In this document: piece by piece, positions 7,198 to 38,745 of the stretch
Numbering within the stretch: the first letter of the stretch is position 1
Layout: each line of letters begins with the position of its first letter
Assembly: GCA_027021785.1 (NCBI GenBank)
Contig: JALUTR010000180.1
Location: forward strand, 1 to 44,899
Length of the DNA stretch: 44,899 nt
Source: Fidelibacterota bacterium
GTDB taxonomy: Bacteria > Fidelibacterota > Marinisomatia > Marinisomatales > JAADGP01
Direction of reading: 5' to 3'
Program-made: the position numbers and the translations under genes
The notes under the pieces: model-generated
Seen by the model: the letters and a program-made list of their open reading frames with translations, nothing else
The model's database searches: none
Told to the model about the DNA's origin: nothing

Positions 7198-9075
7198 ATG
7201 AAACCAAATTCCTCGCTGACAAATCGATTTTATCGATGGTCGATAACCGGAACGCTCGTTCTGGTCCTGCTTCTTTTTTATGATCGGATGATGTGGAGTT
7301 TTCAGGCCCCCAAAAACCTGTTTCTTCAAATTGCCGTTTTCGGAGTTCTCTTCCTCCATTTCTTAAAACCGAGAACGAATTTCCGGTTCGGCCTGCTCGA
7401 TTCCGTCGTCCTGTTCCGGCTGGTGTTTATTGTCCTGCTTACCGTTTTTTGGGGGAATACCGACGACCTTTTCACCCGGCTGGATGTGCTCGCGTACCTG
7501 ACCCTTTTTTATTTTCTGGTTCAACTGAGCTTCCCGACGGACGGGCACGGCCTCACTGACCCGGCCGGCAAGTATTTTTCGTGGCTATCACTTACCGGCA
7601 CGCTTATCGCCGTTTACGGCATCATGCAATATTTCGGAATGGACATTTTTTACCCGCGGGGATATTCGTACTATGAATCAAGAGTGGTCGGCACTTTTGG
7701 GAATGCCAATACAATGGGAGGCTTTCTGGCTGCGGTTTTTCCGTTTGCCGTCTATGTCACGTTCCTTGCGGCGAATAAAAAACAAAAAATCTTCCGGGTG
7801 GTCTGCTCCCTGTTGATGATTACGGCGATTATCCTGACCCTGAGCCGGGGGGCCTGGATGGCGTTGTCCGTGGTACTGTTGATTGCGGGATATTTCGCCG
7901 CGCGGAAAAGGATGGGAACACTTTTTGCCAAACGTTCCTACCGGGTCGGCACCGTTGTACTGGTTGCCGGGATTCTCCTCCTCCTGGCCTGGCAGGTTTA
8001 CCAGTTGAACCCCTCCTCGGCCAGGGGTAGATTTTTCGTGTGGAAAATAAGTTTGAAAATGATCGCCGATCATCCGCTGACCGGCATCGGTTACGGCCGG
8101 TACGGAACACGCTACCTGGACTACCAGGCGGACTACTCTGACGATCCGCGCAACGCCCCGGATTTCGACCGGGCGGCAAACATAAAACAGGCCCATAACG
8201 AGTATTTACAGGTCCTGGCCGAAACCGGCGTCATCGGATTCATCCTGTTTTTGTCCGTCTTTATTATCGCCTGCCGAAATATCGCAGATCTGGTCAAAGC
8301 GGCCGGAAAGGATAAAAAGGAACGGGCGCTGGCCTTGGCCCTGGCCTCATCCCTGACAATCACAGCGTTGCACTCGCTGGTCGACAGTCCCCTGCATACT
8401 TTGCCGGTGAATATCCTTTTTTACTTTGTTCTTGGTCTGATCTCGTTCGGAACCAAAAGTATCGGCCGTAAATATGAGCGGCTCCCGGAAAGAACCGGGA
8501 TCGAATTTTCGTTCAATAACCATTGGTCATTGGCGCTTATCGCCTTTGGAATCTTTGCCTGGGGTTCATTCGACGCGGTCAGAAAAGCGAACGGTTACAT
8601 TGCCTGGCGCAAGGGTCAGGATTACGTGGCGCGCGGGGAATGGTACAGGGGCATAGAAGAATACGAAAAAGCAACCCGGATATTGACCGGCGCGGGGGAA
8701 CTCCGGTTCCATCTCGGCGCCGCCTATGCCTACACCCGGCAGCCTGAAAAAGCATTGGCCTGTTTCAAAACGGCGCAGGCTACGTTTAACGATAAAAATC
8801 TTCATATAACGAAAGGTTCGGCGCTCTACCAAACAGGACGGTACGAGGAAGCGGAAGCAAGTTTCAGAACGGCCTTAAGAATGTACCCGAAACTTCTGCT
8901 TCCGCGTTTATGGCTCGCGGAAATGTACCTCAACAGGGGGAAAGTCCCGGACGCTGTCACGGAATTGAAAACCATTACAACCATCCAGCCAAAGGTAATT
9001 ACCGATGAAATCAGGAGTATCAAAAAAGATGCGGAAAAATTGCTTGAAATTTATGCTGCCGAAAAAACCCAATAA
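7198..9075 (+). CDS. O-antigen ligase/polymerase-like (Wzy/WaaL-type) membrane protein with C-terminal TPR
   Basis: Multiple TM helices; 'GTFGNANTMGGFLAAVFPF', 'LSRGAWMAL', 'TGIGYGRY', 'QAHNEYLQVLAETGVIGFILF' motifs typical of Wzy_C; C-terminal TPR. Start placed at internal ATG 7198 (track ORF begins at 7114). Confidence 0.8.
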   Translation: MKPNSSLTNRFYRWSITGTLVLVLLLFYDRMMWSFQAPKNLFLQIAVFGVLFLHFLKPRTNFRFGLLDSVVLFRLVFIVLLTVFWGNTDDLFTRLDVLAYLTLFYFLVQLSFPTDGHGLTDPAGKYFSWLSLTGTLIAVYGIMQYFGMDIFYPRGYSYYESRVVGTFGNANTMGGFLAAVFPFAVYVTFLAANKKQKIFRVVCSLLMITAIILTLSRGAWMALSVVLLIAGYFAARKRMGTLFAKRSYRVGTVVLVAGILLLLAWQVYQLNPSSARGRFFVWKISLKMIADHPLTGIGYGRYGTRYLDYQADYSDDPRNAPDFDRAANIKQAHNEYLQVLAETGVIGFILFLSVFIIACRNIADLVKAAGKDKKERALALALASSLTITALHSLVDSPLHTLPVNILFYFVLGLISFGTKSIGRKYERLPERTGIEFSFNNHWSLALIAFGIFAWGSFDAVRKANGYIAWRKGQDYVARGEWYRGIEEYEKATRILTGAGELRFHLGAAYAYTRQPEKALACFKTAQATFNDKNLHITKGSALYQTGRYEEAEASFRTALRMYPKLLLPRLWLAEMYLNRGKVPDAVTELKTITTIQPKVITDEIRSIKKDAEKLLEIYAAEKTQ

Positions 9076-11863
9076 AAAATTTGTCAAATCATTCCTCCTA
9101 TGCGTGCTTATTACAGGAATGTTCTTCCCTGCCGGTTGTTCGCGTAGCGGTGAGGAAAAATCAATTCAATATCAACTGTCAAGCCTGGACGGAATGAACA
9201 ATGAATTCCTGCGACAATGGCTTGTTTTGGGTCCCTTCCCCAAAGCCATTGATTTAAAATACGACCCGGATCACGGAAAACAATGTACCGGGTTTTATGC
9301 CGATTTCCTCGCGAACGCGGGGGGCGAACAAAATATCCGTCCGGTCGAAGGCAACACTCACATAACCGATTACGAAGACACCTTAACCTGGCGGTATCAT
9401 AAAACTTCCTCCAACATGGTAAATTTTAATGAAATATTTTCCCCCAATGATTACACCGTGGCGTACGCCTATTCTGAAATCGTTAGCCCGGACGACCGGG
9501 AAATATTGTTTGCCCTGGGCAGCGACGACGGCATAAAAGTGTGGGTTAACGGGGATGTGGTTCATGAGAATCACCGGGCCAGAGGGCTCCACTACGACCA
9601 GGATCGGGTGGTGGTAAAACTGAAAGCAGGCAACAACAGAGTACTTGTGAAAGTGGACGAAGGAGTAGGAGCCTGGGGCTTTGCGCTGCGCCTGGAATCC
9701 AGGGCCGATGCCTTTGAATATGCGAAATCCAACCCGGATAAAATGTGGCAATACGCCCTGGTCGACTACGTAATTCCTCCCGGCGACACTCTTTCGCTCA
9801 GAAAAGGGGACATGCGTTTGTCTTTGTTGCCGGAAATTCCGGACGCGCGACTGACAATTGAACATTCCGCAACAAAATACAGGAAGACGTGGGATGTGGA
9901 ATTCGGGCGGGCGCTGAAAATTCCTATGGAAAAACTGCCAATGGGACTGTATTCGCTGACGATTACATCCGGCCCGGCTGACGGTTCCGTCATATATCAG
10001 AGCAAATTTTACCACGGGGATACACAACCGTTGCGTGAATATTATCCCCGGCGGTTCGAACCATATCTGGCAGGGAGCGACCGTAAAACCGAAATCAATA
10101 TCACGGCGGTCCTGGAACGGTTAAAAGTATTGTATGAATATGGCAGGGATGGTTTCCGGCCGCGGTTGAATTATCGGCTGGTGGAACTGATTTCCGAAAT
10201 GGACGCCATTTTGGGATTCCTGGAGGCCGGGGAAGAACCGTTCAAACATCGGACGGGAACCCACATTCGCGGATATTATTCCGCGATTGATGACACGGCG
10301 CAATATTATCAGGTTTATGTCCCTGACAACTATGATAAAAACCGTCCCATGCCGGTGGTGATCCACCTGCACGGTATTTTCGGTGATGACCGGCCGTTTC
10401 ACAAAAGCATACCTCTCGACCGCACCCCGGTTCTCCGCACCATTGAAAAACACGCCCGCGACAACGGCTTTATCGCCATCTGGCCGCACGGCCGGGGCAA
10501 CGCCGTTTACAAAGGGATCGGGCGGGACGATTTCTTCGCGGTGCTTAACGAAGTGAAAAACGATTACAACGTGGATAAAGATCGAATATACCTGACAGGA
10601 TATTCGTACGGAGGGTCGGCGGCCCTGGAGATTGCTTCCCAATATCCCCACCTGTTCGCCGCCGTGGCGCCGATCGCGGCCTTTACGGATTACCGGTTGT
10701 CCCTGGACCCCCGGGAGGCGCTTCATGAAAGCGACCGGAAATGGCGGGACGCGAATAATATCATCCGCTACGCAAAGAACCTTGCGCACGTGCCGGTATT
10801 CATTCAACATGGCGACAATGACAACTATTGCGACCTGAAAAATTCCACCCGGCTTTACGACATCTTAAAATCGGTCGGTAACGACGTCAGGTTGAAAATA
10901 ATCCCCGGGGCCAACCACTTCAATTTCATCGGTGATCCCCTGGATTCCGTTTACCAATGGTTCAAAGACAAGCAAAGGGTGAAAAACCCTGAAAAAGTGT
11001 TCTTTTCCACTTCCAGACTGAAATACAACCGTGCGTACTGGCTGACCATCGAAAGCCTGACGAAACGCCTCGATTTGGCTTCGATCGAAGCGAAAATCAA
11101 AGGGAATACAATTTTCGTGAAAACCGGGAATGTTTCCTCCTATGGGCTGGAATTGAACGATGAACTCCTGGATACGAGCAGGGAAGTTGCCGTGATTACA
11201 AACGGCCGGGAAAGTTTTCGCGGTTATCTCCCGGCGGACGGAAAACTTTTAATCAATCTGGAAAAGGATACAATTTCCGGGAGTCAAAGCTCTGAAGGAC
11301 CGATCAGTGAAATCTTTGCCGCTCCTTTCGCGCTTGTGCCCGGAACGGCGGGGACGGAGGAACAGAAGAGAGCGAACCTTGAGGTAATGGATAATTTTCT
11401 TGATGCCTGGAAAGGAAGGTTTTTCACCAATCCGCGGATTATCGATGACGTGGATATCGGCGATGAGGAAATCGACAAATACAATTTAATCCTGTTGGGC
11501 GGTCCGGAATCGAACCTGATTGCCCGGAAAATAATCGCCGGTTTGCCGATTGCGCTTACCGACAGCATCCTTACTTTCGGGGGAAAAAGTTTTCGACAGA
11601 CGAGTCCGTACGGTTTGCAGTTGCTTTACCCGAACCCCCTGAACGGGAACAAACTTGTTCTATTATATGCGCGGTCCGGGTGGGAACCGGACAGCAGGGA
11701 AAGGAAATTATTTGACCGGTTTATGATCGATGCCTGGTATGATTTCCTTTTGTTTGACAGTCAGACCCGCGGTCCCGCCTCCGCCCCTTTAATAGGGTTT
11801 TTCGATTCGAACTGGCAAATTAACGACGCGCTGATGTGGAGCATACAGGAGTTGCCATACTGA
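9053..11863 (+). CDS. Lipoprotein: jelly-roll/PA14-like domain plus alpha/beta-hydrolase esterase domain
   Basis: Lipobox FPAGC; 'ALGSDDGIKVWVNGDVVHEN'; esterase motifs 'PVVIHLHGIFGDD', 'GYSYGGSAALEIA', 'IPGANHFNF'. Track ORF starts at 9005; ATG 9053 gives a better signal peptide. Confidence 0.75.
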   Translation: MLPKKPNKKFVKSFLLCVLITGMFFPAGCSRSGEEKSIQYQLSSLDGMNNEFLRQWLVLGPFPKAIDLKYDPDHGKQCTGFYADFLANAGGEQNIRPVEGNTHITDYEDTLTWRYHKTSSNMVNFNEIFSPNDYTVAYAYSEIVSPDDREILFALGSDDGIKVWVNGDVVHENHRARGLHYDQDRVVVKLKAGNNRVLVKVDEGVGAWGFALRLESRADAFEYAKSNPDKMWQYALVDYVIPPGDTLSLRKGDMRLSLLPEIPDARLTIEHSATKYRKTWDVEFGRALKIPMEKLPMGLYSLTITSGPADGSVIYQSKFYHGDTQPLREYYPRRFEPYLAGSDRKTEINITAVLERLKVLYEYGRDGFRPRLNYRLVELISEMDAILGFLEAGEEPFKHRTGTHIRGYYSAIDDTAQYYQVYVPDNYDKNRPMPVVIHLHGIFGDDRPFHKSIPLDRTPVLRTIEKHARDNGFIAIWPHGRGNAVYKGIGRDDFFAVLNEVKNDYNVDKDRIYLTGYSYGGSAALEIASQYPHLFAAVAPIAAFTDYRLSLDPREALHESDRKWRDANNIIRYAKNLAHVPVFIQHGDNDNYCDLKNSTRLYDILKSVGNDVRLKIIPGANHFNFIGDPLDSVYQWFKDKQRVKNPEKVFFSTSRLKYNRAYWLTIESLTKRLDLASIEAKIKGNTIFVKTGNVSSYGLELNDELLDTSREVAVITNGRESFRGYLPADGKLLINLEKDTISGSQSSEGPISEIFAAPFALVPGTAGTEEQKRANLEVMDNFLDAWKGRFFTNPRIIDDVDIGDEEIDKYNLILLGGPESNLIARKIIAGLPIALTDSILTFGGKSFRQTSPYGLQLLYPNPLNGNKLVLLYARSGWEPDSRERKLFDRFMIDAWYDFLLFDSQTRGPASAPLIGFFDSNWQINDALMWSIQELPY

Positions 11864-12174: not shown

Positions 12175-13065
12175 TTAACTTTTTCGTGTTTGCCCAACCC
12201 ACACTTTCAGAACCCGTTTGTCGCCGTTGTAATCGGCAATCAATTCCGGTTCGGAAAAGCATTTTCCTTTAAACAGCGCCGCCGCTTTGCGCGGATGGTC
12301 GCCTAGTCCCACTTCCAGCACCAGGCATCCTCCGTCCCTCACCAATTCAGGCGCCACTTCCGCCAGGCGGCGATAGAAACTTAATCCGTCGTTATTATCC
12401 GTCAGGGCATGGTGCGGTTCATAATCCACCACATCTTTCATTAAAGAGCTCATTTCGTCAACGGTAACATACGGCGGGTTGGAAACGACAATATCGAACG
12501 GACCGTCAACCGTGGATTTAAAAAAATCCATCCGGATAAAACGAACGTTGGTAATGTCCAGGTTTTGGGCGTTTAAGCGGGCCACTTCGAGGGCTTCTTC
12601 GGCGATATCAAGCGCCACAACCCTGGCTTGCGGCAGTTCATGCGCCATGGCCAGGGCGATACATCCGGAACCGGTTCCCACATCCAGAATACGCGGACTT
12701 TCCCGGTTGCCGGCGGCATGGATCGCCACATCCACCACCCGTTCGGTTTCGGGACGCGGAATCAACACGCCGGGATTTACGCTGAATTTCAGTCCGTAGA
12801 ATTCCGCGGTTCCGGTAATATATTGCAACGGCTCCCTGTTAAGACGGCGTTTTACCCATCCCCGCAGGGTTTCCAACTGGGATTTTTCGAGCGGCTCCTC
12901 GAAACGCAGGTACAGGTCAATCCGACTACAGTTCAGAAGGTCCCGGAGCAACCATTCGATTTCCCGGCGTGGATTCTCAAAGCCGCGGGAGGCGAAGTAC
13001 TCCTCCGCCCAATGAATCAGGTCAATCACCCGCCAAATTTTCCTGTCTGCGCGGGCCGGGGACAT
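12175..13065 (-). CDS. prmC: Peptide chain release factor N5-glutamine methyltransferase
   Basis: NPPY motif (VVSNPPYVTVDEM), 'LIPRPETE', 'ILDVGTGSGCIALA'; adjacent to prfA. Confidence 0.93.
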   Translation of the reverse strand: MSPARADRKIWRVIDLIHWAEEYFASRGFENPRREIEWLLRDLLNCSRIDLYLRFEEPLEKSQLETLRGWVKRRLNREPLQYITGTAEFYGLKFSVNPGVLIPRPETERVVDVAIHAAGNRESPRILDVGTGSGCIALAMAHELPQARVVALDIAEEALEVARLNAQNLDITNVRFIRMDFFKSTVDGPFDIVVSNPPYVTVDEMSSLMKDVVDYEPHHALTDNNDGLSFYRRLAEVAPELVRDGGCLVLEVGLGDHPRKAAALFKGKCFSEPELIADYNGDKRVLKVWVGQTRKS

Positions 13066-13068
13066 CGA

Positions 13069-14130
13069 TTACTCAGCCATTAGCTTGGCTTGTTGATCCG
13101 CCAGGCGAAGGCGTTCGATCAGTTCGTTCAAATCGCCGTCCAGGATGGCATCCAATTGATAGGATGTATAATTAATCCGGTGGTCGGTCAGGCGTCCCTG
13201 GGGAAAATTGTACGTCCTGATCTTGGCTGATCGATCGCCGGTGGAAACCAGCGATTTACGGACCTGGGCCCGCTCCCGGGCAATTCTTTCCTGCTCCAGG
13301 GCCAGTAACCGGGAACGGAGAACTTTCATGGCCGCGGCCCGGTTTTTATGCTGCGATTTTTCGTCCTGGCAGGTGACCACCAGGCCGGTGGGCAAATGCG
13401 TAATACGAATCGCCGACTCGGTTTTGTTCACGTGTTGCCCGCCGGCTCCGCTGGCACGAAAGGTGTCGATTTTCAAATCAACGTCTTTAACCTCCACATC
13501 GGCCTCTTCCGCTTCCGGGAGTACGGCCACGGTAGCCGCGGAAGTGTGTACCCGGCCCCCGGCCTCCGTTTTCGGCACGCGCTGAACACGGTGAACTCCG
13601 CTTTCATACTTCAATTTTCCGTAAGCGCCTTCCCCCTCCACCGCAAATACGATCTCCTTATACCCCCCGATCCCGGTCTCATTCACGGCCATTACGTTAT
13701 ATTGCCAATGGGACCGCTCGGCAAAGCGGGTATACATGCGAAACAGATCGGCGGCAAACAAGGCGGCTTCCTCGCCGCCGGTGCCGGCGCGAATCTCAAC
13801 AATGGTATTCCGACTGTCATTGGGATCTTCAGGCAACATCAATACCTTTAATTCATTCTCTTTTTGGACCAGGGCCGCTTCCAGTTCAACCAGTTCATCC
13901 TTGGCGATTTCCTTCAGTTCCTCGTCCCCGCCGACCAGGATTTGTTTGTCATCCTCGATCTGTTTATAAAGAGATATGTATTCCTTCCCCAGGAAAACAA
14001 TGGGTTCCAGACGGCGATGTTCCCGGGCCACTTCTTTCAGGCGGTCCTTATTCGTGATCACGGCCGGGTCGGTTAATTGCCGTCCCAACTCCTCGTAATG
14101 TTCGATTATGCTTTGTATTTTATTTATCAT
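13069..14130 (-). CDS. prfA: Peptide chain release factor 1
   Basis: GGQ motif '[25 protein letters not shown]', '[15 protein letters not shown]'. Confidence 0.96.
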
Positions 14131-15068
14131 TCAATGGCCTCAGCCAGGTATTCCTTCCCGATCACGTCTTCGTAACGTTCTCCGAAAGCCGATTTTAGAG
14201 CGGTAATGGCCACTTCCACCATGTTGTCTTCGGGCGGACGGGTGGTAATATTTTGCAACCACAATCCGGGGGCTCTCAACATCCGGACAAGCAGTTTATC
14301 TCCATGGCGGGCGGTAAACTTGATTACCTCGTAGGACACGCCGGCCACGAACGGGATTAAAGGGAGATGGAGCGCCAGGCGCGCAAACAGCGGCAGGGGA
14401 CCCACCAGGGCGATGGCGACCGTATCAATCAGCGCGAACACCAGGATCGCCGATAAAAGCACAATGAACAAAAAACTGGTGCCGCAACGAGGATGCTGGG
14501 TGGGAAAGGCCTGGGCGTTTTCCACCGTTACTTCCTGTCCCGATTCAAAATTATACACCACCCGGTGTTCGGCACCGTGGTTCTGGAATAAACGGCGCAC
14601 ATCCTTCAGTAAGGAAATGATTGCCAAATAGAGAACGAAGAATAAAATCCGAAACAATCCCGCGATTAAATTGAACGCCAGAGCATCTTTCCCCAACTGC
14701 AACAATTTACTGGTGATCCAGTAGGGCGCCACCATGAACAGGGAAACGGCCAGAACAACAGCCAGGGAGGTGGAAAAAAAGGCGGCCAGCCTGCCGGGTT
14801 TTTCTTCGGGAGTTTCGGGAGAAACGGCAATATCGGCGGACCATTGGAGGGTTCGAAAGCCGATCCGCATGGCTTCATAGAGGGAAATTATCCCGCGCAG
14901 GATCGGTTTTTTCCACTTGTCCGATCGCTCCATGCGGGAAATAAATTCATGCCGGTCAACCTGTATTTTTCCTTCCGGATCCCGAACAGCGGTCGCATAC
15001 GCTCCCGGGACCCGCATCATGACGCCTTCGATTACTGCTTGTCCTCCCACCAGAATGGAGGGTTTCAT
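14127..15068 (-). CDS. DUF1385 family membrane protein
   Basis: '[23 protein letters not shown]' N-terminus, '[15 protein letters not shown]', TM segments. Start placed at internal ATG 15068. Confidence 0.88.
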
Positions 15069-15103
15069 TACCGCGAGTGTCAGGAATCTTTTCATGTGCA
15101 TAA

Positions 15104-15163: not shown

Positions 15164-15370
15164 CTACCGGCCTAATTTGCCATATTTTTTCTCGAACTGC
15201 TCAATCCGCCCGGCCGTATCCACCAGCTTTTGCTTGCCGGTGAAAAAAGGATGGCACTGATTGCAAATTTCAACGCGCTGGTCGCCCACCGTACTGAATA
15301 CCTGAAAAGTATTGCCACAGGCACAATGAACGGTTCCCAAAGTATATTCAGGATGAATTCCTGTTTTCAT
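15164..15370 (-). CDS. rpmE: 50S ribosomal protein L31 (zinc-binding form)
   Basis: MKTGIHPEY...CACGNTF...[32 protein letters not shown]. Confidence 0.96.
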
Positions 15371-15388: not shown

Positions 15389-16597
15389 TTAATCCAATTT
15401 TTCCAAAACATGTTTTACGCGGGCTATGCCTTTTCTTATTTGATCCTTGCTGGTTGCAAAGGAAAAGCGGACATGCCCCGGAGCGCCGAAACCGTCGCCC
15501 GGCACCGTAACCACTTTTGCCGAATTCAGGATATATTCACCCAAATCAAAGGTGTCCTCAATTATTTTTCCATTGGCCCGTTTTCCCAAATAGTATGACA
15601 TATCCGGGAAAGCGTAAAACGCACCGCCCGGCAGATTGCATTCAACCCCCGGAATATCATTCAGCAGTTGTACGATCAGATCGCGGCGTTCCAAAAATTT
15701 CTGCCGCATGAAAGCCACGGATGACTGATCACCCGTCAAGGCCTCTATCGCCGCTTTTTGCCCGATGGAATTGGCGCACGATGTAGCCTGCCCCTGAATC
15801 TTGGACATGGCTTTAATGAGCGTTTCATTCCCCGCCGCATAGCCGATCCGCCAGCCCGTCATGGCATAGGTCTTCGATAAACTCAGACATGTCAAAACCT
15901 CGGCTCCGACAGTATTCAGCTTCTCGGCGCTGACAAACGGATCGCCGTACACCAACTGCTCGTAACATTCATCCGCAATCACCAACCAATTATGTTCGGC
16001 TGCCAGTTCCAATACCCGCACAACAGCTTCTTTAGACCAGACACCACCGGTGGGATTGGACGGTGAATTGATAATCACGCCTTTTACCCGGTCGGTAATC
16101 TTAGCCTCCAGGTCATCGAAATCGGGTTCGAATTGCCGCTGGGCCACGGTTTTAACAATTACCGGTTCCGCGTCCGCCAAACGGACAAATTCAGGGAAGG
16201 AAACCCAGTAAGGAGCAAAAATCAATACTTCGTCACCTTTGTCAAACAGCGCCTGACAGGCGTTGTAAAGGCTTTGTTTTTCACCGTTTGAAACCAGAAT
16301 CTGGCTGGGTTCGTAATGCAAACCGTTTTCCCGTTCCAACTTCCGGCAAATCGCCTGGCGCAGTTCCAACATTCCCGACCCGGCCGTGTATTTCGTATAA
16401 CCTTCATCAATGGCGCGCTTGGCGGCCTCCCGTATGTTCTCAGGCGTATTGAAATCCGGTTCCCCGACACTGAAATTGATCACATCTTCTCCCTGTTCCC
16501 GCAATTCGGTTGCGCGGGTAGCCATTTCCAATGTGAAAGAAGGTTTTACTCTCCGGACTCGTTCTGCAAACTTAATTTTGGGTTGGTTCCGTTTCAT
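15389..16597 (-). CDS. Pyridoxal-phosphate aspartate-type aminotransferase (class I/II)
   Basis: 'INFSVGEPDFNTPENI', 'INSPSNPTGGVW', 'SLSKTYAMTGWRIGYAAG' (PLP lysine), 'RFSFATS'. Confidence 0.92.
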   Translation of the reverse strand: MKRNQPKIKFAERVRRVKPSFTLEMATRATELREQGEDVINFSVGEPDFNTPENIREAAKRAIDEGYTKYTAGSGMLELRQAICRKLERENGLHYEPSQILVSNGEKQSLYNACQALFDKGDEVLIFAPYWVSFPEFVRLADAEPVIVKTVAQRQFEPDFDDLEAKITDRVKGVIINSPSNPTGGVWSKEAVVRVLELAAEHNWLVIADECYEQLVYGDPFVSAEKLNTVGAEVLTCLSLSKTYAMTGWRIGYAAGNETLIKAMSKIQGQATSCANSIGQKAAIEALTGDQSSVAFMRQKFLERRDLIVQLLNDIPGVECNLPGGAFYAFPDMSYYLGKRANGKIIEDTFDLGEYILNSAKVVTVPGDGFGAPGHVRFSFATSKDQIRKGIARVKHVLEKLD

Positions 16598-17589
16598 ATG
16601 TTGTGTTGCTTTCTATGATATTCCTCGCGGTTGAATTTATCGTCCAGTTCCTCGTCTTCAGGAAGTTCGGTCCCGCTCTTTTCACTTTTTCTTTTCGGCG
16701 CGCTGAACGGCGGTTGTGACCCTTCCTCAACTTCGAATTCCTCGGAAAGAACCCGTTTGGTCGAACCGGTTTTGCGAATCGAACGCTTACGGGGTTTCGG
16801 CACTTCTTCCACCCGGACGCTTTCCAGTTCGAAGTCGTCTTCGGATATCTCCTCGACATCCGCCTTGGGAGCGTCGGATTGTAAAGCGTTTTCATCGAAA
16901 TGGAACATGTCGGGATTAAACAGACCGTAAATGGTACCGTAACCACGGGTAATTCCATTCCCTATTCCCAGATAATTGGGGAGGATGAAGTTGGTCCGGA
17001 ATTCGCCGTAAAAGGCGCCCCAGTTATTTTCGTCGACCGGGCGTGGGAACAACGAAGTTAAAGACGTCTTCGTGTACACTCGCTCTTCAAGGTCCAAACC
17101 CATCTCCCGTGCCAGAAACACGATGTTTTGACCCAGCAGACGGTTCAGGAAGATGACCCGTTCCGCATTATTCAAAAATCGATAACGGCTGCCTGTTGTC
17201 TGATTTAACGCCACCCAGGGGGTGATAAACCGGTAACGGATCAGACGATTAATGGGTTTAAAGCGATTATTGCTCTCTTCCAGATCCACATCCAGCACCT
17301 GGAAGGTTATGTTCCCGAAATCAAGGAAATTGAACTGTTTTGCCAACTCAAGTACCGGTTCTACACCTTCGCCGATCCCCACAACATATATCTGTTCGTT
17401 CAGGATTTTTACCTGCACACGGGGATAGAGAAAGCGTTCCCGGTACCGTCCGTCCAGCATGGGAACGATTTCCTCATCCGGGTATTGCTTCATAAACACA
17501 CCTTTAACCTGGTAAGGTGTCTTCTTTACTGGTTTGTCAGTTATCAGCTTGGCGATTACTGCACGTACCTCAGGATAGCTTTTTTGCAT
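16594..17589 (-). CDS. Cas6b-like (Cas6 superfamily) protein lacking catalytic histidines, with a charged C-terminal tail
   Basis: Motif order matches Cas6b-type endoribonucleases: G-x-(I/F)...FP/YP, 'YPRVQVKIL', 'YVVGIGEGVE', 'YRFITPWVALNQ', 'LNRLLGQNI', 'GAFYGEFRTNFILPNYLGIGNGITRGYGTI' (glycine-rich loop). Strong SD (GAGGTG) 5 nt upstream of ATG. No His in residues 1-229. Confidence 0.75.
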   Translation of the reverse strand: MQKSYPEVRAVIAKLITDKPVKKTPYQVKGVFMKQYPDEEIVPMLDGRYRERFLYPRVQVKILNEQIYVVGIGEGVEPVLELAKQFNFLDFGNITFQVLDVDLEESNNRFKPINRLIRYRFITPWVALNQTTGSRYRFLNNAERVIFLNRLLGQNIVFLAREMGLDLEERVYTKTSLTSLFPRPVDENNWGAFYGEFRTNFILPNYLGIGNGITRGYGTIYGLFNPDMFHFDENALQSDAPKADVEEISEDDFELESVRVEEVPKPRKRSIRKTGSTKRVLSEEFEVEEGSQPPFSAPKRKSEKSGTELPEDEELDDKFNREEYHRKQHNI

Positions 17590-17649
17590 TGCTACACCTC
17601 ACTAATATTTTAAAAAAACCTGCTACACACTTACTCAAATATAAACATT

Positions 17650-18897
17650 TTATTGACTCATAGTATCCAAAAATTCTTCATTGGATTTGGTCCTCCGCAT
17701 GCGTTCCTGCAGAAATTCCATCGCTTCAATAACATTCATTTCATTTAACAACTTCCGTAAGATCCAGATCCGTCCCAACCATTTCTTTGACAATAACAAT
17801 TCTTCCCGACGGGTGCCGGAACGAATCAGATCAAAAGAGGGATAAATCCGGCGATCACTCAGTCGTCGATCCAGGACCAGTTCCAGGTTTCCGGTGCCTT
17901 TGAACTCTTCAAAGATAACATCATCCATGCGGCTGCCGGTATCAATCAGAGCCGTGGCAATTATGGTCAGGCTTCCGCCTTCTTCCGTGTTCCTTGCCGC
18001 TCCGAAGAATTGCTTGGGTCGTTTTAACGCATTGGCGTCCACACCGCCGGATAAAATTTTACCGCTGTGAGGAATAACCGCGTTATGAGCCCGCGCCAGG
18101 CGGGTAATGCTGTCCAGCAGGATCACAACATCATCACCGAACTCCACCATTCGCTTGGCCTTCTGCAACACCATATCGGCCACCGACACGTGCCGTTCCG
18201 GCGGTTCGTCAAAAGTGGAACTGACGACCTCCGCGTCCACATTGCGCTTCATGTCGGTAACTTCTTCCGGCCGTTCATCAATCAGCAGTATTAACATTTT
18301 TGTCTTGGGGTGGTTCTGCCGAATACTGTTCGCCAATTTTTGGAGCAGAACGGTCTTTCCCGTCTTGGGTTGCGCAACAATCAACCCACGTTGACCCTTC
18401 CCAACGGGAGCAATCAGGTCCATGATCCGCATGGACATGTTTTTCGGGTCCGTTTCCAGGTTGAATTTTTGATCCGGGTATAAAGGTGTAAGATTGTCAA
18501 ACAGAATGGCCTGCTTTACGTCCGCGGGAGGGCGTTCATTGACCATATCAACTTTTAACAAAGCGTAAAACCGTTCTTTCGCTTTTGGCGGTCGGATCTG
18601 ACCGGCTATCTGATGCCCGGTTCGCAAACCAAAACGCTTGATTTGTGACGGGCTTACATAAATATCATCGGGGCCGGGGAGGTAATTAAAGTCGGGGCTA
18701 CGCAAAAATCCGTATCCGTCGGGCAAAACCTCCAATACACCACGCGCGTACAAAGACCCCTGCTTCTCCGCCTCTTCCTGGAGAATTTTTACGATTAGTT
18801 CCTGTTTATTCAGCCCTGAATACCCCTGGATTTCCATCCCCTGGGCGAGCTTGGTTAGCTCCTTAATTTTAAGGGCTTGCAGTTCATTGACATCCAT
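17650..18897 (-). CDS. rho: Transcription termination factor Rho
   Basis: '[38 protein letters not shown]', Walker A '[24 protein letters not shown]', '[12 protein letters not shown]', '[11 protein letters not shown]'. Confidence 0.97.
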
Positions 18898-19004
18898 AAA
18901 GAAATATCCCAATTGAGTTGATAGTTGTTCGGGAAGGAAAAAACCTATATAAAAATATGAAAAATCCTTCGACGAGTAGGTGAAAACCGAAGAGATAAAT
19001 TACA

Positions 19005-20294
19005 TCAAATGACCCCATTGTCAAAGGGAAATTCAAACTCCCGAAATACGGCTCCGGCAATATAATGACTTCCGAAAATCAGGCCCGGACGGCACTGATT
19101 TGACTCCCCGCGCAACTGACAAAAAGCCGCTCCAAACGGTTTAATTACCTGGCAGGTGACACCAAAATCACTAAGCGCACATTCCAATTTATTGGCCTTC
19201 ATAACTCCTGCCCCAGGTACATCGGTTATGATCAGTTCGGCAAAATGTTCCCGGAGAACCGGCGCTATCCTTCCCAATTCCTTATCTGCTTTCACCGCAA
19301 TAACGCCCCGCGGTTTGTTTTGATACAAATTCCGCAGGGTTCCGGCGGCGGCACCTATGCCCTGGGCATTGTGCGCCACATCGTAAAATATCGGTTTGGT
19401 CCGGTGCAGCCGCTGCAATCGTCCCGGCCACCGTACATTGACAAGTCCCCCGGCTATAAAATCCCCGGCTACTTCAGGATCCAGTACCCGCACCGTTTGA
19501 ATTGCCAGGGCCGCGTTTTCGACCTGATGTGCCCCTAATAATACGGTTACATAATTACATCCTTTAAATGCAAACCGACTTCCCGAATCTTTAATGGAAA
19601 AAATGCCCATATCTTTCTTCTTTACCCGGTAAACACGTGCCTTTTTTGCTGCGGCTTGTTCCAAAAGCACTTTTTCAACTTCCGGTGGTTGAGGGGCCAG
19701 AACCAGGGGGGTGTTTTCCTTGATGATACCGCTTTTTTCAAAAGCGATGGTCTTAAGGTCGGGCCCCAGCAAATCCGTGTGGTCCACATCTATGGAAGTA
19801 ATTACCGACACCTCCGGTGTCAGAACATTCGTGGAATCCAGCCGCCCCCCCAAACCGGTTTCAATTACCGCCATATCCACTTTCCGCCGGGCAAAATACC
19901 AACATGCCAGGGCTGTAGTCGCTTCGAAAAAGGTAGATTCCAGCGCCTCAAAGTCCGCCCGGTGTCGATTGACAAATTCCACAATCTCGTCATCGGAGAT
20001 CGGAATACCGTTTACCCGGATACGTTCATTGAAACGAACCAGGTGGGGCGATGTATAGAGCCCCACGCGGTAACCCGCCTGGCGCAGAATCGAAGCTGTC
20101 ATTGCCGCCGTTGACCCCTTCCCGTTTGTCCCGGCGATATGCACCGCGGAAAACAAACGGTGTGGGTTGCCGCATTTCTCCAGGAGAATCCGGGTATGTT
20201 CCAAACCCACCTTGATTCCCCGGCGACGGAGATTGTAAAGGTAGGTCAACAAATCCTGCAATCCGTTTTGCATTACGGTTTCTTCCGGGTTCAA
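19005..20294 (-). CDS. folC: Folylpolyglutamate synthase/dihydrofolate synthase
   Basis: 'HIAGTNGKGSTAAMTASIL', 'YTSPHLVRFNERIRVNG', 'ETGLGGRLDSTNVL', 'DVAHNAQG'. Confidence 0.93.
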   Translation of the reverse strand: MNPEETVMQNGLQDLLTYLYNLRRRGIKVGLEHTRILLEKCGNPHRLFSAVHIAGTNGKGSTAAMTASILRQAGYRVGLYTSPHLVRFNERIRVNGIPISDDEIVEFVNRHRADFEALESTFFEATTALACWYFARRKVDMAVIETGLGGRLDSTNVLTPEVSVITSIDVDHTDLLGPDLKTIAFEKSGIIKENTPLVLAPQPPEVEKVLLEQAAAKKARVYRVKKKDMGIFSIKDSGSRFAFKGCNYVTVLLGAHQVENAALAIQTVRVLDPEVAGDFIAGGLVNVRWPGRLQRLHRTKPIFYDVAHNAQGIGAAAGTLRNLYQNKPRGVIAVKADKELGRIAPVLREHFAELIITDVPGAGVMKANKLECALSDFGVTCQVIKPFGAAFCQLRGESNQCRPGLIFGSHYIAGAVFREFEFPFDNGVI

Positions 20295-34153: not shown

Positions 34154-34855
34154 TTATTGGCGTTTCACCAGGGTGGCATTGATAATGATTTCCACGCGGC
34201 GGTTTAAATCACGGTCAGCCGTGGAAGTATTGGCGCGAACGGGACGGTACTCTCCATAGCCGGAAACGGCAAACATGGCTTCCGGCAAGCGTGTAAATTT
34301 TTGCAGCATGCGCATGACCACCTGGGCGCGGGCCGCGCTTAATTCCCAATTATCCCGATAATTCGACCCTTCAATAATCGGAATATTATCCGTATAGCCC
34401 TCCACACGAATTTCCACTTTCCATTCCAAACCGTTTTTCACAAACTCGTCAATCCAGGAACGCAGATTCGGATTTTGTTCGAGATGCAATATGCCCAAAT
34501 CGCGGATCGCGTCGGCAATACTTTTTATATGTGTTTCCAGTTTGGGATTGGGATCCGCTTTCCCGGGATCAAACATTTTTTTATCATGAATAACTATCCG
34601 GACGCCTCTTGAATCGTGTCCTATTACCAGTCCCGCAATCCCGCGCTGTGTGATGGTTGCCGTAAGTTCATTTACCGCGTTTGATAATTGATCCGCTACC
34701 CAGGCATGCACTTTCGAGATTTCACCGGCTCTTATGGAGATCATCATGATAAAGAACGTAATCAGTAACGTAATCATATCCCCGTAACTCAACAGCCAAC
34801 TGCTGCGGGTTTTTACGGAACCTACATTCTTGTCTGTTTTAGCTTTAAATACGAT
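34154..34855 (-). CDS. motB: MotB-like/OmpA-domain protein retaining the TM Asp (true start uncertain; extended to ATC 34855)
   Basis: 'SSWLLSYGDMITLLITFFIMM' (Asp present), OmpA-like 'VEGYTDNIPI...NWELSAARAQVVMRML...NRRVEIIINA'. Track ORF starts at TTG 34792. Confidence 0.75.
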   Translation of the reverse strand: MVFKAKTDKNVGSVKTRSSWLLSYGDMITLLITFFIMMISIRAGEISKVHAWVADQLSNAVNELTATITQRGIAGLVIGHDSRGVRIVIHDKKMFDPGKADPNPKLETHIKSIADAIRDLGILHLEQNPNLRSWIDEFVKNGLEWKVEIRVEGYTDNIPIIEGSNYRDNWELSAARAQVVMRMLQKFTRLPEAMFAVSGYGEYRPVRANTSTADRDLNRRVEIIINATLVKRQ

Positions 34856-35543
34856 CGGTAACCTCTATCAACTGCACATCGATATAAATTTCGACCCGTC
34901 GGTTTTCATCCAGCCTCTCCCGGCTGCGGAGGGGGTGAAATGAACCATACCCCGCCAGGGAAAAATATTCCTTGGGAAGGGCCGTTTCCGATTGCAAAAA
35001 TTTCATCACCTGGTAAGAACGCGCCAAACTTAAATCCCAATTGGTTTTAAACCGGCCGGAAAGAACCGGTAAATAGTCGGTGTGTCCTTCCACCGTCAAT
35101 TCAATCGTAACTTTTTTTCCCGATTTTTCAAGGGCCTCAATTATCGGCCGGTAAGTTTGCTGGATTTTTTCCAACTCCAGTTGCTTGATGATATTGGCGG
35201 TTGTTTCCAGAAAACCGATAAAAAGGGGATTGATCTTGTCGTCTTCCGATGGAAACATCGGTTGTTTGCCGATTCTCGAAGGGATCAGTAATTTAATCCC
35301 CTTGGTTCCGGTGTTTTCAACGTATAACCAGTCCAATCGTTGGCTTTCTTTGTCTTCCAGAATCCGGGAATACAGCATATTTTTTATGCGTTCCGAAAAT
35401 TTAAACGTCGTTGCCGCCTCATGCTCGGCCCGCGTTACGAAAAGAATGAAAAAGGCCAGAACGGCCGTCAGGAGAGAGGCGTAAGTCATCATCCAACCGG
35501 CTCCAAGGGACCGGGTCCGGTCGTCCGTTATTTTATCTGCCAT
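34845..35543 (-). CDS. MotB-like/OmpA-domain protein with Ser replacing the TM Asp
   Basis: 'GWMMTYASLLTAVLAFFILFVTRAE'; OmpA-like 'VEGHTDYLPV...NWDLSLARSYQVMKFL...NRRVEIYIDV'. Start at internal ATG 35543. Confidence 0.8.
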   Translation of the reverse strand: MADKITDDRTRSLGAGWMMTYASLLTAVLAFFILFVTRAEHEAATTFKFSERIKNMLYSRILEDKESQRLDWLYVENTGTKGIKLLIPSRIGKQPMFPSEDDKINPLFIGFLETTANIIKQLELEKIQQTYRPIIEALEKSGKKVTIELTVEGHTDYLPVLSGRFKTNWDLSLARSYQVMKFLQSETALPKEYFSLAGYGSFHPLRSRERLDENRRVEIYIDVQLIEVTDRI

Positions 35544-36363
35544 TTGATCCCCGGTGTAAAGCCCGTGTATCCTTATCAAGGAAAGTCAGGAGCTTTTCTT
35601 CCATGATTACCGGGTGCTCCTTACTGTGGATACTTAAAATGCCCGCCAGGATTATTTCATTAACATGTGTTTCAAGTGCCGTGCGACCTTTTAATTTTCC
35701 CGCAATGGGAATAAAAATAAGATTAGCCAGGAGAACGCCGTAGAAAGTCGTGACCAGGGCAATGCCCATTCCGTCCAACAGTTGTCCCATGGAGTTCTCC
35801 ATTTGCGATGCGTATCCCGTAACGGAGCTTGACTGACCCTGTTGCGTCATCATCAGGATCAACCCCATCACCGTTCCCAGCAATCCGAAGGCCGGCGCAT
35901 AATTTCCCATATTATAAAACATCTCCTGTCCGTTTCGATGTCTTTTAATCATATTATCCAGTTCGTTCTCCAGGAAACTGCGTAACTTGCCGGCGTCCTT
36001 TTCGAGAATTGCGTTTTCAAGTCCCATCCGTAAGTAATTGTTTTCGATCGTCGGCAATAACTTCTCGATTGTCACGAAACCTTTCTTGCGGGCGATTTGG
36101 CTTAATTCAACCAGTTGGTTAATAATTTCAACCGCCGAATCTTCATTCTTTCCACCAAAGGCATTTCCGGCGACCCGGAACATACGCAACACGTTGGGCA
36201 ACGGATAGTTAATTGCCGTGGCGGCCAGGGTTCCGCCCAATACAATGGCAACTCCCTGAATATTTACGAAAGTTGACGGAATCATTTGGGTGTTTGGATC
36301 AAACATTCCAAACAGGATCAATCCCAGTCCGATGATCAGACCAAAAACAGTTGCAATATCCAT
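35533..36363 (-). CDS. motA: MotA-type stator subunit
   Basis: 'IVLGGTLAATAINYPL', 'ARKKGFVTIE', 'GNYAPAFGLLGTVMGLILMM', 'GMGIALVTTFYGVLLANLIFIPIAGKL'. Confidence 0.92.
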   Translation of the reverse strand: MDIATVFGLIIGLGLILFGMFDPNTQMIPSTFVNIQGVAIVLGGTLAATAINYPLPNVLRMFRVAGNAFGGKNEDSAVEIINQLVELSQIARKKGFVTIEKLLPTIENNYLRMGLENAILEKDAGKLRSFLENELDNMIKRHRNGQEMFYNMGNYAPAFGLLGTVMGLILMMTQQGQSSSVTGYASQMENSMGQLLDGMGIALVTTFYGVLLANLIFIPIAGKLKGRTALETHVNEIILAGILSIHSKEHPVIMEEKLLTFLDKDTRALHRGSNGR

Positions 36364-37204: not shown

Positions 37205-37936
37205 CTACCCTGTAACCGTATTGGTTTTAACAAACGCATCAAGATAAATTTCCACGCGCCTGTTTTTGGCACGGGCTTCTTCGATATCCAGCGGATTCTT
37301 CCCGACGGCCTTTATGTCAATAACAGGACGAAATTCGCCATACCCCATGGCGGAAAACTTCGATTCCTCGATTTGCGAAAACCGGCTTAATAGTTTCACC
37401 ACGTTTAAGGCCCTGGCCGTGGACAAATCCCAGTTGCTTTGGTATAAGGAATTTTTCGGCAATGGGAGATCATCCGTATGTCCCTCACAACGTATTTCAA
37501 CATTCAGAAATCCCCCTCGTTTTTCGATTGCTTCCAACAGGTTCTTATAGCGTGGATCTTCGAATACCCGCATAATTTTCGATACCCGTATAATTCCCCC
37601 GATTTGTTGCAGAAGGGGATACACCTCCGGCTGTACTTCCGCATCCATGGATTTGAACAACCGACCACTGGCCATGGTAATTTTAACCCCCTTGGTAACC
37701 CGTTCAACACGCACATAGGAGGATTCGACGTTTTCCTTTAATTCCTTATATGTTTCATCCAAAAGCATGTTGATTACACGGTCAATATGCTTTTCAGCAT
37801 CGTTCATGATCACCAGCAACAATATAAAAAAGGTCAATAAAAGGGTTACCAGGTCAGCATAGGTCACCGCCCAGGCCGTGCTTTTCGCCTTGGCCTCCTC
37901 CGCCGAAAGCCCATCGTGAAGAATGGCGGTGGTCAC
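37205..37936 (-). CDS. motB: MotB-type stator subunit (canonical Asp)
   Basis: 'STAWAVTYADLVTLLLTFFILLLVI', 'CEGHTDDLPL...NWDLSTARALNVVKLL...NRRVEIYLDA'. Confidence 0.9.
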   Translation of the reverse strand: MTTAILHDGLSAEEAKAKSTAWAVTYADLVTLLLTFFILLLVIMNDAEKHIDRVINMLLDETYKELKENVESSYVRVERVTKGVKITMASGRLFKSMDAEVQPEVYPLLQQIGGIIRVSKIMRVFEDPRYKNLLEAIEKRGGFLNVEIRCEGHTDDLPLPKNSLYQSNWDLSTARALNVVKLLSRFSQIEESKFSAMGYGEFRPVIDIKAVGKNPLDIEEARAKNRRVEIYLDAFVKTNTVTG

Positions 37937-38745
37937 TTTATTTCCTGCCGTTTACTTTGGGGAACAAAAGTCATGAGTTTTTCCCGAATAAGAAGCGGGT
38001 GCTCCTTGGCATGGATACTGATGATTCCTTCCACGATTATATTCTTCAGCATCAGTTCCTCTTCGGATTTGCGTTTCAGCTTGCCCCCAATGGGCAGAAA
38101 CACAAGATTGGATAACAACACACCGTAAAAAGTCGTAATCAGGGCCAACCCCATTCCGCTTAACAACTCGGCGAATTTTTTGGCTACGTCAAACTCGATC
38201 GTGTCTACCGGGCTCCCACTCCCCCCGGAGAAATTATTCATCATTATAATCAATCCCATAACGGTTCCCAGCATTCCGAAAGCCGGCGCGTATGCGCCCA
38301 TATAGAAGAAAATTTCCTGTCCATTGCTATGGCGACGCACAATATTGTTCAATTCCAGATTGAGATATGTCCGGAGCCGACCGGCATCGCGTTCGTTAAT
38401 GGCCAGTTCAATTCCATTCCGTAAAAATTTATTGCTGATTTTATCCAGATCAGCTTCCAAAGACATAATCCCTGATTTCCGCGCCTTTTCCGCTTTTTCC
38501 ACCAATTCGTCAATCCAGTCCTGATAGCTGTAGTCCTCATCGGTAAATACGTTTTTTAATACCTTAAACAGGCCCAATACATTCTTAAGCGGGTAGTTCA
38601 CCAGCGTTGCCGCAATGGTACCACCCAATACAATCATAATCGAATTAAAACTGAAAAACCAATACAAATCACCACCACCACGCCAAACTCCGACACCAAT
38701 AATGCCCAGACCGGCAAGCAAACCAATGGCTGTTCCAAAATCCAT
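37933..38745 (-). CDS. motA: MotA-type stator subunit
   Basis: 'GGTIAATLVNYPLKNVLGLF', 'ARKSGIMSLE', 'GAYAPAFGMLGTVMGLIIMM', 'GMGLALITTFYGVLLSNLVFLPIGGKL'; ATGA overlap with motB. Confidence 0.92.
   Translation of the reverse strand: MDFGTAIGLLAGLGIIGVGVWRGGGDLYWFFSFNSIMIVLGGTIAATLVNYPLKNVLGLFKVLKNVFTDEDYSYQDWIDELVEKAEKARKSGIMSLEADLDKISNKFLRNGIELAINERDAGRLRTYLNLELNNIVRRHSNGQEIFFYMGAYAPAFGMLGTVMGLIIMMNNFSGGSGSPVDTIEFDVAKKFAELLSGMGLALITTFYGVLLSNLVFLPIGGKLKRKSEEELMLKNIIVEGIISIHAKEHPLLIREKLMTFVPQSKRQEIK

Follow-up and report, generated by a model that had tools for sequence, protein, structure and literature searches.

Cas6b proteins are widespread in archaea and bacteria, and it is well established that transposons and others have exapted CRISPR systems as a whole. 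Cas proteins that were exapted or inactivated are described in the available portions of a CRISPR classification (PMC12669027), an essay on exaptation (PMC8730458) and a unification paper (PMC3150331), and solo-Cas4 and cas1-solo genes are examples of Cas family members outside CRISPR in the accessible parts of the respective reports (PMC5704561, PMC9939771). For the protein considered here, the closest described system is the type I-B endoribonuclease Cas6b of M. maripaludis (PDB 4z7k/4z7l), in which the catalytic residues are His38, His40 and Tyr47 (PMC3945376). Another point of comparison is Cas6 of Sulfolobus solfataricus (Sso1437), a CRISPR enzyme that cleaves pre-crRNA with an active site devoid of histidine (PMC3652601).

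Directly downstream of rho in a member of the Marinimicrobia lies a gene whose product resembles the M. maripaludis enzyme in both Pfam domains, in its fold, in the motif YxFxTPWxALN and in the framework of the glycine-rich loop, but which lacks the three catalytic residues, the Lys/Arg of the loop and a CRISPR context. Its family is fixed beside rho and, in one order, carries an extra tail. The absence of an active-site histidine is shared with Sso1437, whereas the rho-linked family is CRISPR-free and no family-wide basic network was found in it; solo-Cas4 and cas1-solo genes encode different proteins. Judged by sequence and gene order, the family goes back to an ancient exaptation of Cas6b and has been inherited vertically, fixed behind rho, free of CRISPR and with both catalytic histidines lost, and a defence enzyme turned into a housekeeping factor related to RNA or to Rho is suggested. 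The most likely mechanism, to which we assign a probability of roughly 45%, would be that of a non-cleaving RNA-binding factor that acts with or on Rho.

A stand-alone, His-less, rho-linked Cas6 is not described in the available portions of the three surveys cited above, and nothing relevant was found in the open-licence literature on Cas6 combined with Rho or with Marinimicrobia; the exaptation is apparently undescribed. What appears to be new is that one Cas6 has become a fixed chromosomal housekeeping gene throughout a major phylum of marine bacteria, having lost its catalytic residues but kept its fold. The family offers a naturally His-less form of Cas6 whose evolutionary record is long, and it points to a novel Rho-tied factor in abundant uncultured ocean bacteria.

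Gene organization and homology to Cas6b

The locus was analysed within a window, the whole 44.9 kb stretch of DNA, and its features are collected in Table 1. A preliminary description of this DNA had reported a Cas6b-like reading frame at 16594-17589, and the frame was recovered at these coordinates on the minus strand (331 aa, ATG start). Counts of promoter and terminator signals around the gene did not exceed those in shuffled sequences, with none in the gap behind rho, and no known RNA family was found in the window.

Table 1. Features of the rho-linked Cas6b-like locus (positions are those of the window).
Feature	Position	Strand	Evidence or remark
Rho-linked Cas6b-like gene	16594..17589	-	331 aa, ATG start
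Cas6b-fold core, residues 1-225, common to all rho-linked orthologues	16915..17589	-	Pfam, AlphaFold2 + Foldseek to 4z7k
Former active site, residues 43-53 PMLDGRYRERF, replacing His38-Asn-His40...Tyr47	17431..17463	-	alignment, His absence 55/55
Glycine-rich loop, residues 205-220 (NYLGIGNGITRGYGTI), N211 replacing the conserved basic residue	16930..16977	-	
Acidic/basic low-complexity linker, residues 226-317	16639..16914	-	mostly predicted disordered
Conserved C-terminal tail KFNREEYHRKQHNI, predicted helix	16597..16638	-	alignment + AlphaFold2 model
60-bp gap, rho to Cas6b-like gene	17590..17649	-	
GTGTAGCA copy 1	17621..17628	-	inside the rho-gene gap
GTGTAGCA copy 2	17590..17597	-	abuts start codon, preceded by GAGG
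rho	17650..18912	-	Pfam Rho_N, Rho_RNA_bind, ATPase; TIGR00767
Aminotransferase (aspC-like)	15389..16597	-	start overlaps Cas6b-like stop by 4 nt
folC-like, upstream of rho	19005..20294	-	
rpmE (bL31)	15164..15370	-	
DUF1385 gene	14127..15101	-	
prfA (RF-1)	13069..14130	-	
prmC	12175..13065	-	

The Cas6b-like identity first proposed from the order of motifs is upheld by matches far above chance, and all of the motifs quoted at that stage were found in the protein. Both Pfam domains score above their curated cut-offs (Cas6b_C, PF17262, 1.3e-24; Cas6b_N, PF17955, 7.7e-10), the PADLOC models for Cas6 and Cas6b match at E=7e-42 and E=4e-40, and the solved structure of M. maripaludis Cas6b, 4z7k, is matched by sequence at E=4.9e-29. 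An AlphaFold2 model of moderate confidence (mean pLDDT 67, pTM 0.63), built from 35 aligned sequences, has a tandem ferredoxin-like RAMP fold like that of 4z7k, which is also the best match of the model in the PDB (Foldseek E 7.6e-16, TM 0.78 on target); the fold check thus returned a Cas6b. Deep rho-linked orthologues match the Cas6b_N and Cas6b_C profiles too. The rho-linked protein is homologous to Cas6b by descent, yet falls short of that family as defined by function. Annotation calls for care in this respect, as PADLOC and Pfam label the gene as Cas6 in genomes without detectable cas1.

Loss of the catalytic residues

In an alignment with 4z7k, His38, Asn39, His40 and Tyr47 of the M. maripaludis enzyme correspond to Pro43, Met44, Leu45 and Phe53. 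Residues 41-60 read IVPMLDGRYRERFLYPRVQV, with PML in the place of HNH as had been noted from the sequence, and the first histidine of the protein is H230, leaving residues 1-229 without any. The loss is fixed among orthologues: across the alignment used for the tree, which holds 55 rho-linked and 20 other Cas6b proteins, H38 and H40 are absent in 55/55 rho-linked copies, and the other copies keep H40 in 20/20 and H38 in 19/20. The position of Tyr47 is occupied by a mixture of Phe, Tyr and Val across the rho-linked family. A cleavage-dead state is likely from these alignments, with some uncertainty, because a His-free Sulfolobus Cas6 still cuts (PMC3652601).

The rho-linked family has changed beyond its catalytic residues. 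The Lys/Arg of the glycine-rich loop, found in 18/20 of the other Cas6b proteins, is replaced by Asn or Cys in 54/55 rho-linked ones, with the loop glycines retained. The glycine-rich RNA-binding loop of the preliminary description therefore stands as far as its glycines go, but not for the conserved basic residue, whose place is taken by N211, and an intact RNA-binding loop is not to be assumed. The Lys at position 186, again present in 18/20 other Cas6b proteins, is lost in the rho-linked family. Some of these co-altered positions are basic and possibly RNA-facing, and since they changed alongside the histidines, the claim of intact RNA binding has to be tempered. A framework common to rho-linked and CRISPR Cas6b comprises YP, QxK, YxF, PW, LN, N155, FxGxF, N200, P204 and the loop glycines. 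Gained in the rho-linked family are Y26, G47, R50, R57, F158, E162 and G191, with exceptions mostly in family f25.

These exchanges bear on the possibility that the protein is still a ribonuclease, in which a histidine-free basic site cuts a small number of cellular RNAs or just one, the message of the rho operon being a candidate, in a manner like that of Sulfolobus Cas6. SsoCas6 cuts with Lys25, Lys28, Lys51 and Arg231 (PMC3652601; PMC3945376), and the conserved Arg50 and Arg57 were gained near the old active site. Both arginines are missing in f25 orthologues, however, Tyr47 is lost, as are the conserved Lys residues 186 and 211, and no fixed alternative catalytic triad or family-wide basic network was seen across the rho-linked alignment, and we consider continued cleavage improbable.

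For a non-cleaving RNA-binding factor, the charge of the core is relevant. Its pI is 9.2 here and 8.9 in the family median, and orthologues in families f30 and f31 are acidic (5.1-5.5). RNA binding is plausible from the modelled fold and the basic core, and weakened by the loss of the loop Lys/Arg and of Lys186.

Distribution and linkage to rho

A 27-row profile built for the rho-linked family was run against 245 genomes of the Marinimicrobia (Candidatus Neomarinimicrobiota), and the rho-linked version was found in ~126 of them, a figure reached from 134 genomes with any match by removing 4 whose matches all had E>0.05 and 4 in which the CRISPR-type copy was the sole one. At all loci read (37 + 29 + 43, with some genomes counted twice) rho lies directly upstream on the same strand, across a gap of 1-94 bp, and the adjacency holds from 95% down to ~25% identity (~25-30% in families f25, f30 and f31). 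None of 147 sampled genomes from outside the phylum has a rho-linked Cas6b; Cas6b matches occur in 8 of them, 8/8 beside cas genes.

In most lineages the gene is followed by aspC-rpmE-DUF1385-prfA-prmC. Families f22 and f23 keep the pair with rho (gap ~10-16 bp), and folC, aspC, rpmE, prfA and the rest of the downstream operon are gone from the neighbourhood; the two families group together in the tree, so this rearrangement with rho retained counts as one event. The proposed link to rho is borne out by a synteny that has outlasted rearrangement of the remaining operon. The same gene order raises the possibility of a role in translation, within an operon that includes bL31, RF1 and PrmC, where the place behind rho merely reflects an old operon. 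The conserved downstream genes agree with such a role, as does a rho-aspC adjacency that is found even in lineages without the gene, but f22/f23 keep only rho beside it, and in genome G182 it is followed by a different aminotransferase. We consider a translation role unlikely.

Where the Cas6b-like gene is missing, rho is retained, and Rho therefore does not depend on it. In these lineages rho is followed by aspC or by other genes. Comparison of Rho residues with gene presence gave only weak, phylogeny-like differences. Co-loss of rho and the Cas6b-like gene was ruled out, rho being present nearly everywhere, including the gene-less lineages. The slot behind rho in gene-less loci L122, L123, L126, L132 and L133 is occupied by different genes, of which several look sensor-kinase-like on visual inspection. 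Family f8 (G035-G058) of the window's order, with small genomes of 0.4-1.0 Mb, yielded no Cas6b-like gene.

Independence from CRISPR and evolutionary origin

The window had been described as free of CRISPR repeats, and a search of it for regularly spaced repeats found none. A check for a CRISPR system with a separate Cas6 in the same genome (3.2 Mb, 99% complete) returned a single Cas6b_C copy, no Cas1 and no Cas7/DevR, with the array check covering the window. Among the ~126 rho-linked genomes cas1 was undetected in 114 and detectable in 12, and none of the rho-linked orthologues examined lies beside a CRISPR array or has the catalytic His. Ordinary Cas6b does occur away from rho in the same phylum, both at loci where the stretch also carries cas genes or an array (L097, L102, L104, L112 and L113) and at loci where a small cas query set found no cas neighbour (L075, L079, L111 and L114). 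Five genomes contain both kinds of Cas6b (G006, G007, G070, G083 and G179).

Type III systems frequently rely on a Cas6 supplied in trans, according to the available portion of the CRISPR classification (PMC12669027), and the rho-linked protein might in this way process crRNA for arrays elsewhere in the genome. The scarcity of detectable cas1, its absence together with that of Cas7/DevR from the genome of the window, the loss of His in all copies and the separate HNH-type Cas6b alongside in five genomes stand against this, and make it very improbable indeed.

In an unrooted tree (55 + 20 proteins) the rho-linked and the other, including CRISPR-linked, sets are split with UFBoot 100, and deep branching inside the rho-linked set follows taxonomy. 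Given that Cas6b is so widely distributed and that no other phylum was found to have the rho-linked form, the most parsimonious account is a single exaptation near the base of the phylum, followed by vertical inheritance and repeated loss, including in the reduced genomes of f8; the direction is inferred, the tree being unrooted. The core is under strong purifying selection, as estimated from pairwise dN/dS values of 0.01-0.09. The suggestion that this is a domesticated Cas6b is strongly supported: it is CRISPR-independent, vertical across the phylum, fixed in its His loss and strongly selected.

The C-terminal tail and the leader element

Beyond the core, the linker has pLDDT values mostly under 60-70 and varies in length among orthologues. 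It is followed by a conserved end, FN...(Y/H)HxKxH (HxxxH), and linker and end alike are confined to members of the window's order; N320, H325 and H329 are invariant in alignment A2, and the region is predicted helical. Short orthologues stop at the end of the core or just beyond, and no second copy of the tail was found in the genome.

Within the window GTGTAGCA has two copies, both on the sense strand and both inside the 60-bp gap between rho and the gene; as a spaced pair they occur nowhere else in the 3.2 Mb genome. In relatives (37 loci, 538 kb) 8/12 occurrences fall in the same gap. The shorter GTGTAG is present in 21/71 distinct gaps of the order, versus a mean of 0.8 in shuffles (maximum 5); since the shuffles ignore relatedness, this enrichment is suggestive and carries no probability. 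From its sequence and position, GTGTAGCA in this gap can be proposed as an RNA site for autoregulation. Family f13 and all deeper lineages are without the GTGTAG element. In genera g19, g22 and g18 it forms part of the loop of a small hairpin whose stems differ. A leader hairpin as a family-wide structure was rejected, with no fold in f1, f6, g17 or the window's own gap. Many gaps in g17, g18, g19 and g22 also have a TTAAATT-like stretch right after the rho stop (e.g. L004, L010, L022, L043 and L078).

Tail and leader are both relevant to a further possibility, that RNA binding has been lost and the fold now mediates contacts between proteins, with Rho, RNA polymerase or the ribosome for instance, the tail serving as a docking peptide. 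The invariant tail residues after a disordered linker fit this, as do the lost basic residues at 186 and 211, the acidic pI of f30/f31 and the family-specific conservation of non-basic residues (Y26, F158, E162 and G191). Yet the core is basic in most lineages, the glycine framework and aromatic motifs common to Cas6b are strictly kept, and the GTGTAGCA leader element suggests an RNA target. We regard a purely protein-binding role as rather doubtful.

A possible mode of action with Rho

Rho has known cofactors and regulators, such as NusG, Rof/YaeO and Psu. The likeness of the rho-linked family to these is limited to a possible role as a modulator of Rho, the proteins being unrelated as far as known.

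If the protein is an RNA-binding factor that does not cleave and that works with or on Rho, several steps can be proposed with differing confidence. The two-domain RAMP fold of Cas6b would, very probably, have been kept while cutting by the histidine route ended. The protein would then bind a specific short RNA in a mode unlike that of crRNA repeats, which we hold to be somewhat probable. Made together with Rho, it might act with or on it, for example by recruiting Rho to particular transcripts or barring it from them, a step to which we give a little less than even odds. More tentatively, the tail could dock onto a partner protein in the window's own order, and in part of that order the protein could regulate its own expression via GUGUAGCA in the leader. 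Counted against the RNA and Rho parts are the lost Lys/Arg and Lys186, the acidic f30/f31 and the retention of rho without the gene; counted against the leader site are the lack of GTGTAG in f13 and deeper lineages and a hairpin that does not form in the window's gap. In the widest form of this proposal, the dead Cas6b would regulate termination across the phylum: it would recognize short RNA elements, GUGUAGCA in its leader and different ones at other sites, and guide Rho, and the order-specific tail would recruit a further partner; as a whole, we think this unlikely.

Other features of the window

Two adjacent MotA/MotB-like pairs (34845-36363 and 37205-38745, minus strand) have stretches of DNA that are ~72% identical at a spacing of 2.4 kb, and look as if a stator-like proton channel pair had been duplicated in tandem. 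On the plus strand, 9005-11863 encodes a predicted lipoprotein of 952 aa in which an esterase/S9-peptidase-like alpha/beta hydrolase domain has long flanks.
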